A DNA stretch of 64,000 nucleotides from Fibrobacter sp. (GTDB lineage: Bacteria; Fibrobacterota; Fibrobacteria; Fibrobacterales; Fibrobacteraceae): assembly GCA_024398995.1 (NCBI GenBank), contig JAKSIE010000004.1, positions 1 to 64,000 of the forward strand, written 5' to 3'. Shown piece after piece: positions 32,589 to 35,242 of this stretch (the stretch's first letter is position 1; each line of letters begins with the position of its first letter). The position numbers and the translations under genes are program-made. Under the pieces are notes generated by a model. That model made no database searches. It was not told where the DNA came from and worked only from the letters and a program-made list of their open reading frames with translations.

Positions 32589-32659
32589 TTGAGTTACCAG
32601 GATTCGAACCTAGACAAACAGAGTCAGAATCTGTTGTGCTACCGTTACACCATAACTCA
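32589..32659 (-). tRNA. tRNA-Gln (anticodon CTG)
   Basis: The minus strand folds into a full cloverleaf: acceptor TGAGTTA/TAACTCA, D stem GTGT/GCAC with AACGGTA loop, anticodon stem ACAGA/TCTGT with loop TTCTGAC (anticodon CTG), and T arm CTAGG-TTCGAAT-CCTGG. The T1-A72 weak pair is typical of tRNA-Gln. The discriminator is A, and CCA is not encoded. No sign of an element integrated at its 3' end. Confidence 0.95.
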
Positions 32660-32683: not shown

Positions 32684-34084
32684 CTACTTTTCCTTGGCAA
32701 GGGGGTTTTCAAAAATATTTTGACTTGGAACCTGGTAAGTCATGCCCTGAATCTGCTGAATAGCTCCTTCCGGGAGGGTTACACCGGTCAAAGTCACGTA
32801 AATCCAGCTGGGAGCCTCAGATTCCAGCATCTTAGCCATAACCTTGCGGTCACCACTGTACAGCACAACTTCCTGTGCTCCAGCAGGCATATCTCTCAGG
32901 ACAAAGGTCTCGCAGGCAACGTCGCGAACGAAGTGAGACGTACCCTTGATACCCACAACCACACTGTTCAGCATGCAGTTATTGCTCTGGGTGGAGTCAT
33001 TCTTGTCAACAATCACGTTAACCTTGCTCACCAGGCCAGCGGCCCTAACCAGAGTATCTGCCCCAAGGTCCAAGGTATCCTTCAGGTCCTTAATTTCCTT
33101 TTCAAGAACGTAGCGAGAAGTTCCAGCCTGGGAAACAACATTGTCCTGGATCTTGCGGTATTCCACTCGGAAAGAGTCTTCGGGGACTTCCTTAGGAACG
33201 TTCAGCCACCAACGGCCAAGACTGTCCGTCGTAGTCATCACGGTAAACTTCAAGGAATCGCCTTCAAATCCGAAACCGTACAAGTCCGTAATCAAGTTGA
33301 CTTCGACACCTTCGCAAGCCTTACCGTTCTTGCAGAAAACCTGGCCAGAAATTCGGGAAACCAGCTTAGCTTCCGCTTCGTTTTCCTTGATCAAGGAATC
33401 GATTTCAGCGGTGGGGCTCCAAATAAAGGGACCAATTTCAAGAGTGTCGCCAGTTTTCAATTCGCCGCCCATGCTCCAGGTACGATAGACCACTGTATCG
33501 GACAGGCCAGAATTCTGGAGTTTAGCCACAATCTGGGCATCACCCGGGTAGAATTCCATCCACCAGTTACCTTCCGGCAGCAGAATCTCGAATGTATCAC
33601 CGGCAAACACGCTTTCATAGAACGGAGTTCCAGAAACGCCAACGATGAAATGAGAGCCTACCTGGACTGCAGGTTCAAGCACATCTTCGTAGACCAAACT
33701 ACTCTTGAATACAGCAGCCTTAGACAAGGTAATCTTGTCAAGATCCTTGGCCTTGCGAGTCGCCTTGGGCAGGAAGAAAATTTCAGAAACAGCAGCGTCA
33801 ATGACTGCCAGCTGGAAGGTGTCAGAAAGAACGGAGTCGAAAGAGTAAGCACCGTTAGAATCTGTGGTCACTTCGATCAATTCGGGAACGCCAACACCGC
33901 TTTCTACGTGGGTTCGAGCAATACGGACAATTGCATCAGAGGCTTCGGAGCCATCGGCACGATAAACCACGCCGGCAACGGTATTACCCGTATCGGTAAC
34001 TGTTCCCGCGACCTTATCTGTACATCCCACCAAGCCCAAAATCAGGGCCATAAGCATAGAAGATTTCAAAATAATCTTACTCAT
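32684..34084 (-). CDS. Lipoprotein with carboxypeptidase-regulatory-like domains
   Basis: A 466-residue lipoprotein (lipobox LVGC, Cys21). The first mature region (about 28-110) is a carboxypeptidase-regulatory/CnaB-like beta-sandwich: TVAGVVYRADGSEASDAIVR, then TDSNGAYSFDSV. A second similar module (about 245-330) has SRISGQVFCKNGKACEGVEV and TDSLGRWWLNVP. The remainder is beta-rich. Such modules are structural or ligand-binding parts of surface proteins. Its start codon overlaps the stop of the TIGR02147 gene by four bases (ATGA), so regulator and lipoprotein are translated as a pair. Confidence 0.78.
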   Translation of the reverse strand: MSKIILKSSMLMALILGLVGCTDKVAGTVTDTGNTVAGVVYRADGSEASDAIVRIARTHVESGVGVPELIEVTTDSNGAYSFDSVLSDTFQLAVIDAAVSEIFFLPKATRKAKDLDKITLSKAAVFKSSLVYEDVLEPAVQVGSHFIVGVSGTPFYESVFAGDTFEILLPEGNWWMEFYPGDAQIVAKLQNSGLSDTVVYRTWSMGGELKTGDTLEIGPFIWSPTAEIDSLIKENEAEAKLVSRISGQVFCKNGKACEGVEVNLITDLYGFGFEGDSLKFTVMTTTDSLGRWWLNVPKEVPEDSFRVEYRKIQDNVVSQAGTSRYVLEKEIKDLKDTLDLGADTLVRAAGLVSKVNVIVDKNDSTQSNNCMLNSVVVGIKGTSHFVRDVACETFVLRDMPAGAQEVVLYSGDRKVMAKMLESEAPSWIYVTLTGVTLPEGAIQQIQGMTYQVPSQNIFENPLAKEK

Positions 34085-34935
34085 TTTTCATCCTCTTCAG
34101 TTTCGGGTGGAAGAGCCATTTTTTCCTTGCTCAGGGGGAAGAACTGGATGTTCATCTGGCAGACCATAGCTTCGCCTTCGTCGGAACGGATGATATCCAC
34201 AATTTCCTTACGGAACAAGTCAATCTTACTGATAATGCGTTCCAATCCTTCGGGAGAAACGCTCATCGTCATACAAGATACATTTCTGCGTTCAGTACTG
34301 TAGTGATCCAGCGCATTTTTTCCCAAATCAATCATTTGCTTCTGGAATTCATGCACAAACAAAGGTGCAATTTCACTACCGCTGAAGATGGCCTTGTTCT
34401 CAGAGTGGAAGAAACCGTCTTCGCCAATTTCAATCAATCCCAAGGAACGAAGCAACTGGATAGTCTGCTTTGCCTGAGGCAGGGTAATCTTGGGGTTGAG
34501 GAACAAAGCCAATTCCTGGATGTTCTTTTCGTTAATCTTCAGAACTGACAATGCTTCACGGGCTGCAACATAATACCACTTGCTGTAGTATTCCTGCTGG
34601 CTCTTGGTAAGAGATTTGATAGCGCTAGGCAACAAGGCGGACATTTGGTCGAAGATGGCCTGCTTGGAGGCAGCCGTTGTCGCATGAGTAAAGTCAACCA
34701 TCAAAGTAAAGTAGCGGCCTTCCTTTTCATTCAGACCCAATGCCGCAATAAACTTAGGCAGCATTTGCGGAGTCAGGGACTTGCGGCCACGAATCAGATC
34801 CAAATAGAAACCAGACGAGGAATACCCCGCCTTCTTAGCGAAGGATCTGTACGAAAAATACCTCTGGACGGACTTACGATAGTCGTAGTAGTCCTGCAGA
34901 TATTTTCTGTAGTTATAATATGCGTATACGTTCAT
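34081..34935 (-). CDS. TIGR02147-family protein, probable transcription regulator
   Basis: A 284-residue cytosolic protein of the TIGR02147 (DUF4423-containing) paralogous family characteristic of Fibrobacter. The N-terminus VYAYYNYRKYLQDYYDYRK is the family start. A helix-turn-helix-like region follows (about 28-75: YRSFAKKAGYSSSGFYLDLI, then RKSLTPQMLPKFIAALGL). The C-terminal part carries the DUF4423 signatures (EYYSKWYYVAAREAL; QTIQLLRSLGLIE; CMTMSVSPEGLERI). DNA binding is inferred from the helix-turn-helix. It is translationally coupled to a surface lipoprotein. TATATTTA ends six bases before its ATG. Confidence 0.85.
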   Translation of the reverse strand: MNVYAYYNYRKYLQDYYDYRKSVQRYFSYRSFAKKAGYSSSGFYLDLIRGRKSLTPQMLPKFIAALGLNEKEGRYFTLMVDFTHATTAASKQAIFDQMSALLPSAIKSLTKSQQEYYSKWYYVAAREALSVLKINEKNIQELALFLNPKITLPQAKQTIQLLRSLGLIEIGEDGFFHSENKAIFSGSEIAPLFVHEFQKQMIDLGKNALDHYSTERRNVSCMTMSVSPEGLERIISKIDLFRKEIVDIIRSDEGEAMVCQMNIQFFPLSKEKMALPPETEEDEK

Positions 34936-34941
34936 CGGGTA

Positions 34942-34949
34942 TAAATATA
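34942..34949 (-). promoter_or_regulatory. Promoter element TATATTTA of the TIGR02147 operon
   Basis: TATATTTA, six bases, then ATG; no Shine-Dalgarno. Confidence 0.4.
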
Positions 34950-34967
34950 ATTTTTTTGACGATTTTT

Positions 34968-35127
34968 GGGAACACCTAAAAACGTAAAAATAGGGTCAAA
35001 ACAGGTGTATTTAAACACATTTTGCCCTTGAGACCACTATGAGAACACCTGGAGAACACTTTCGTGAACACTCGTCGTTTTTAGTATACCCACATCAAAA
35101 AAAATTGCCTATATTTGGGGAACACCC
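34968..35127. promoter_or_regulatory. Five direct GAACAC repeats (candidate operators)
   Basis: GAACAC occurs at 34970, 35043, 35054, 35066 and 35120, all in the same orientation, mostly as G(G/A)GAACACC/T. The three central copies are spaced 11 and 12 bases apart, about one helical turn. A partial inverted motif (GTGTATTTAAACAC) is at about 35005-35018. All sit in the 320-base gap between the TIGR02147 operon and the divergent hydrolase-like gene. Confidence 0.5.
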
Positions 35128-35140
35128 AATCCCATCCCTC

Positions 35141-35178
35141 GGACTTCCGCTTCACTCCAAGCGGAAGTCCTTTTTTTT
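35141..35178 (+). terminator. Strong intrinsic terminator with no upstream plus-strand gene
   Basis: Perfect 12-pair stem GGACTTCCGCTT / AAGCGGAAGTCC, six-base loop, eight T residues. On the minus strand no T-run follows. It implies a short plus-strand transcript starting within the intergenic region. Confidence 0.85.
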
Positions 35179-35242
35179 GACCAGGCAGGGATGCGGAATA
35201 GCAAAGGAGTTTCGCAACGTTCCTTTGGGAACGGGGATTTTC

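Follow-up and report, generated by a model that had tools for sequence, protein, structure and literature searches.

We analysed a window of 64,000 nucleotides of Fibrobacter sp. DNA, part of contig C59 in a source genome (G000) that is 2.8 Mb in size and 85% complete. On its minus strand, a gene for a regulator precedes a gene for a lipoprotein (Table 1). The reading frame of the regulator ends with GAA AAA TGA, and that of the lipoprotein begins with ATG AGT, overlapping this TGA; both genes and their ATGA stop/start overlap are as given in a preliminary description of this DNA. A tRNA gene (window positions 32589-32659, minus strand) lies directly downstream of the lipoprotein gene. The 5' region of the regulator gene (34936-35180), outside the span of that description, holds candidate operators and a candidate for a divergent small RNA (sRNA).

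Table 1. Features of the regulator-lipoprotein locus, in window coordinates
Feature	Position	Strand	Remarks
Partner lipoprotein, 466 aa	32684..34084	-	Lipobox with Cys21; motif AGTVTDTGNTVAG after the Cys; two modules of beta-sandwich fold (carboxypeptidase-regulatory/CnaB-like)
ATGA stop/start overlap, 4 nt	34081..34084	-	Kept exactly (-4) in 36/50 orthologous loci
TIGR02147/DUF4423 regulator, 284 aa	34081..34935	-	XRE-like HTH (~1-70), winged helix (~105-185), C-terminal helices
Predicted -7/-10 element TATATTTA of the regulator operon	34942..34949	-	Consensus only
GTGTTC candidate operator half-site (-40)	34970..34975	-	Adjoins the predicted regulator promoter; position fixed in orthologues
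Tandem operator AAAGTGTTCTCCAGGTGTTCTC, 22 bp: two candidate GTGTTC half-sites 11 bp apart	35041..35062	-	Repeat positions in orthologues
Additional GTGTTC half-site (-136)	35066..35071	-	Orthologue comparison
GTGTTC half-site that overlaps the point where the divergent sRNA is predicted to begin	35120..35125	-	Orthologue comparison
Predicted -7 element TATATTTG of the divergent sRNA candidate	35110..35117	+	Consensus only
sRNA candidate, ~60 nt	35118..35178	+	Near-invariant 5' GGGAACACCCAATCCCATCC; terminator hairpin 35141-35170, then T8
Predicted 5' start of the sRNA candidate, GGGAACACC		+	Divergent from regulator

The regulator is a member of TIGR02147 (NCBIfam; score 351.6 bits, the cut-off being 50; model positions 2-271 of 272), and Pfam places DUF4423 at residues 105-268, that is, in the C-terminal two thirds. 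A structure model built from 61 sequences (mean pLDDT 90.4) has helices at residues 9-23, 29-36, 43-48 and 59-66, which form a helix-turn-helix (HTH), together with a winged helix (residues ~111-184), also at high pLDDT. In Foldseek the model matched the HTH domains of C.AhdI, DdrO, HigA and ClgR (probability 0.93-0.96; C.AhdI and DdrO each at TMt 0.70, with probability 0.93-0.94 but E about 1). No match had an E-value below 0.18 and no full-length structural match was significant; the assignment of the HTH, therefore, rests on topology, on a Pfam HTH_3 score below the cut-off (13.3 bits) and on domain-level probabilities. A search by sequence for homologues of solved structure returned nothing relevant. 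The model thus shows, computationally, a predicted DNA-binding fold composed of an XRE-type HTH and a winged helix, and bears out the helix-turn-helix-like N terminus of the preliminary description. XRE one-component regulators (the HTH domains of C.AhdI, DdrO and HigA) share this N-terminal topology, to which the window regulator adds the winged helix and the C-terminal helices.

The lipoprotein has a type II signal peptide, with a hydrophobic segment followed by the lipobox LVGC21, which is retained in orthologues, and a lipoprotein partner is present at all 50 orthologous loci. What these features predict for this presumed outer-envelope protein is lipidation, and not surface exposure. Its structure model (overall pLDDT 57) reaches good confidence in just two regions, beta-sandwiches at residues 36-132 and 145-222, which resemble CnaB-type pilin and adhesin structures (E 3e-5 and up). 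PF13620 (CarboxypepD_reg) matched two stretches at 30.3 bits, just under its gathering threshold of 32.3. Given this sub-threshold score and the CnaB/pilin-like fold, the protein is like CarboxypepD_reg but not formally a member of it. The two carboxypeptidase-regulatory-like modules proposed earlier are, thus, reasonable as a description of the two modelled beta-sandwiches, but not as a Pfam assignment.

TIGR02147 is present in 157 of 168 Fibrobacterota genomes, with 16 members in the source genome, 37 in G104 and 56 in G159. A survey of the genes beside them, as proposed in the preliminary description, found a consistent lipoprotein partner. By inspection of six Fibrobacterota genomes, a lipoprotein was the directly next gene on the same strand for 77 of 84 TIGR02147 genes, in contrast to 19 of 269 ordinary genes (~7%) in 400 kb of G104. 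The gap between the two genes was exactly -4 in 26 of the 79 pairs measured, and at most 60 nt in 78. The seven exceptions were two in the source genome (C37 and C82), one in G104 (C1:1851373), both members in G025, one in G159 (C96, counted as an exception with its frame unclear) and one in G031 (C13), where the lipoprotein lies one gene further downstream. Opposite the G104 exception (L343, C1:1850000-1858500) is a divergent operon, the second gene of which encodes a SAETGSPEL-type lipoprotein of the matching subtype, an arrangement showing that the partner lipoprotein can be moved. G025 (L158, L159) has TIGR02147 without a partner lipoprotein, and genera g21 and g31 lack the family altogether; these are natural losses within the phylum.

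The arrangement was also seen by inspection at 52 of 60 further GTDB loci and, outside Fibrobacterota, at 10 of 12 loci (Desulfobacterales, other Deltaproteobacteria, Bdellovibrionales and one further bacterium). Similarity between regulators correlated with similarity between their partners (Pearson 0.36 in G104 and 0.50 in G000, with 0 and 3 of 5000 permutations, respectively), and nearest neighbours agreed between regulators and partners in 10 of 35 cases. The computation shows that pairing of the regulator with a lipoprotein, and the conservation of this pairing, are a rule and more than chance.

Many partners carry, shortly after the lipidated cysteine, a motif of approximately AGG-[ST]-E-T-G-N-x-[VI], for which a GNP ending is frequent outside Fibrobacterota. 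A loose pattern of this motif occurred within 40 residues of the cysteine in 63 of 113 partners. Further along, at +60 to +100, a single one of the 113 had it, and among other lipoproteins it was present in 1 of 24. A profile of partner N termini gave ~45 strong matches in three genomes, of which ~40 were encoded directly behind a TIGR02147 gene, so the association holds both ways; L340, L341 and L342 are lipoproteins that match the profile with no TIGR02147 gene adjacent. Even in partners from Desulfobacterales and Bdellovibrionales (L206, L216, L226, L255), GGTETGNA or GGTEIGNP follows the lipid cysteine. The motif may be a sorting or export signal. Its conservation just past the cysteine in many partners, together with the tight one-to-one pairing, would also suit feedback of the PrgX/Rgg kind, in which the regulator senses either the lipoprotein's signal peptide or its N-terminal segment. 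The regulator does have weak fold matches to PrgX, Rgg2 and ElrR; however, their Foldseek probabilities are 0.05-0.16, the HTH is followed by a winged helix, and a peptide-binding repeat (TPR-like) domain was not recognised, which makes such peptide sensing improbable.

We found GTGTTC 200 times in the 260 nt upstream of the regulator gene at the 50 orthologous loci, versus 4.6 expected from shuffles. These sites keep fixed positions: the first is at ~-40, two more form a tandem near -100/-113 with a spacing of 11 bp, and another falls at ~-156 to -211; the 11-bp spacing was seen in 39 cases. Upstream of ~50 TIGR02147 paralogues in G000 and G104 there was no GTGTTC, save for three paralogues with a single site. 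In the same two genomes, paralogues with an F[ST]W signature in the HTH share upstream sites resembling TTTGTATCAT (for example, L020, L021 and L024), and TTTGTAT lies upstream of 13 of 27 F[ST]W paralogues versus 1 of 25 others (0 of 300 label shuffles for 7-mers). The sub-variants TTTGTATTCC and TTGTATAAT of this site seem to follow the recognition helix. Comparison of repeated 7-mers between orthologous paralogue pairs gave nothing in most pairs and a clear result in few; TGTGTAA was clear for C110, and palindromes were seen by eye for C35 and C82. As far as sequence can suggest, each regulator would have an operator of its own, and the differences in upstream motifs between regulators support the preliminary description's idea of a dedicated regulator. 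We infer that the window regulator itself binds the GTGTTC repeats; another factor could bind them instead.

The block containing the sRNA candidate was found in 92 of 168 Fibrobacterota genomes, nearly all of family f1 and usually in one copy, and it adjoins the regulator orthologue in other genera too. Of the 11 pairs in its hairpin, 9 show compensatory changes, with a covariation of 0.504 versus 0.242 in shuffles (0 of 500) and at most 0.21 in slid controls; the minimum free energy of the candidate corresponds to z = -6.1. It has no start codon and carries two UCCC motifs, which occur in sRNAs that bind Shine-Dalgarno sequences (PMC4132741). With such UCCC-motif sRNAs, for example LhrC of Listeria (PMC4132741) and RsaE, it shares a C-rich 5' segment with two UCCC motifs and a terminator hairpin. 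Unlike them, the candidate is single copy and has no homology at Rfam thresholds (the best matches, RsaE at 16.7 bits and suhB at 15 bits, are below the gathering cut-offs of 79 and 41), and no target was found: across 25 genomes, a second complementary site was nowhere conserved, and duplexes at 201 gene starts were energetically no more favourable than those formed by shuffled sRNAs. The absence of a target and the sub-threshold Rfam matches would also suit a mere terminator or a DNA operator at 35118-35178. A terminator on the plus strand, however, could end only a transcript starting between 34936 and ~35118, near-invariance extends over the first 18 nt of the 5' end, far more than the 6 nt of an operator, and the covariation of the hairpin also argues against this explanation, which we therefore regard as possible but rather unlikely.

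We searched 25 genomes of the genus, away from the locus, for the tandem operator in the form AAAGTGTTCNCNNNGTGTTCYY, allowing at most 2 mismatches; the target lists below rest on such pattern searches, for which reversed-pattern controls gave 13 matches in all. We inspected 44 off-locus sites, and 37 of them were intergenic, versus 14.9% intergenic sequence in a control genome. Matches within coding sequences (L384, L386, L398, L400, L401 and the mismatched ones) were set aside as chance. All but one of the 37 intergenic sites have the start of an exported-protein gene at a distance of at most 260 nt, 30 of these being lipoprotein starts, compared with 38% exported proteins and 10% lipoproteins among control genes taken by the same rule. 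When the targets were collapsed to ~11 gene families (our own grouping), 7 were lipoproteins and 11 were exported (P about 2e-5 each).

An FKBP_N/FKBP_C-type PPIase lipoprotein gene is preceded by the operator in 13 of the 25 genomes, including the source genome (G000 C1:32633, L446; other such loci are L403, L414, L437 and more). The operator is also found upstream of GH45 lipoprotein endoglucanase genes (L409, L424, L442, L379, L396) and of GH8 (L433, L459) and GH9 (L439, by Pfam; L452, by shared N terminus) endoglucanase genes, the GH8 and GH9 sites having 1-2 mismatches and coming from two genomes each. A small lipoprotein gene beside pth is another recurrent target. The operator runs with the gene at FKBP and at the regulator's own operon, and against it in every GH45, GH8 and GH9 case; sites in these two orientations may act in opposite senses. 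In F. succinogenes S85 grown on cellulose, proteomics found four carboxypeptidase-regulatory-like lipoproteins to go down and a GH45 cellulase to go up (PMC6851124), which fits opposite regulation, the gene numbers of that study being unmatched to the present loci.

As the operator also stands before other envelope genes, the regulator would not be private to one lipoprotein. Conceivably, the regulator controls its own operon only, and a second envelope regulator acts both on this operon and at the other sites. The regulator-lipoprotein pairing is strong by itself, and one degenerate site persists, before the pth-neighbour lipoprotein, in a genome where the orthologue was undetected (G132, 95% complete). 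The repeats, however, reach their highest density (4-5 copies) and conservation at the regulator's own promoter, also in other genera, in which no further convincing target came to light, and they are almost absent before paralogues; a purely local role, thus, appears unlikely.

We consider it reasonably probable that the locus encodes an autoregulated one-component system, in which the regulator binds the GTGTTC repeats and controls its own operon, the sRNA and a small envelope regulon. The pairing, the two-domain fold, the orthologue-restricted repeats, the covarying hairpin and the enrichment of sites before genes for exported proteins were each obtained directly by computation. The regulator would be a cytoplasmic autoregulator made from one operon with the outer-envelope lipoprotein, translational coupling presumably fixing the ratio of the two. 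Bound at the direct repeats spaced 11 bp apart, it would control the regulator-lipoprotein operon, the divergent ~60-nt sRNA, whose predicted start is overlapped by a repeat, and the genes for the FKBP-type PPIase lipoprotein, GH45 lipoprotein endoglucanases and other lipoproteins, as well as GH8 and GH9 endoglucanases in some species. The lipoprotein, or the state it is in within the envelope, may feed back on the regulator.

The preliminary description went further and proposed surface switching, each TIGR02147 protein toggling a variable surface lipoprotein so that the coats of cells differ. The large expansion of the family in G104 and G159 and the divergent lipoproteins behind a common N terminus would be in keeping with this idea. 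At the window locus, however, the regulator is a core gene, with one orthologue in each of 78 of the genus's 80 genomes; the DNA upstream of it showed neither an invertible nor a slippage element, and the predicted regulon extends beyond the partner. The terms variable lipoprotein and surface switching, therefore, find no support at this locus, and we judge the switching model very unlikely.

TIGR02147/DUF4423 (PF14394) is a sequence family to which database descriptions assign no function. A literature search returned a single paper naming DUF4423, which lists Bd3700 in a table of the Bdellovibrio proteome, and none on TIGR02147; the lipoprotein pairing, operators and regulon of the family were not found described. 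Envelope responses of the Sigma-E/Cpx type include sRNAs and the periplasmic PPIase FkpA. The regulon predicted here likewise joins a PPIase lipoprotein, other lipoproteins and a small RNA, but has no sigma/anti-sigma or two-component parts; a cytoplasmic one-component regulator and a lipoprotein would take their place, and cellulase genes are included. The control of endoglucanase genes proposed here has a parallel in cellulase regulators of other bacteria, such as CelR of Thermomonospora (cited in PMC3079729); the window regulator, by comparison, is unlinked to the cellulase genes and was not recognised as belonging to the same family.

These results offer a first functional frame for TIGR02147/DUF4423, of which a genome may hold up to dozens of copies; they add an sRNA candidate to Fibrobacteraceae, and the motif after the lipid cysteine of the partners now needs explaining. 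The F. succinogenes S85 genome paper (PMC3079729) describes the transcriptional control of its cellulases as an unanswered question and suspects regulators elsewhere in the genome. For Fibrobacter there is now a named candidate regulator, for which an operator is defined and cellulase targets are predicted, and this makes the question directly testable. More speculatively, and as a proposal we hold only tentatively, TIGR02147-lipoprotein pairs could be a widespread, unrecognised class of envelope regulation in Fibrobacterota and some other phyla, in which a cytoplasmic regulator with two HTH domains is produced along with a lipoprotein, frequently one bearing the motif behind the lipobox, and which reports the state of the envelope or of attachment to the substrate; the core Fibrobacter member with its sRNA could then be the missing regulator between surface lipoprotein traffic and cellulase expression.
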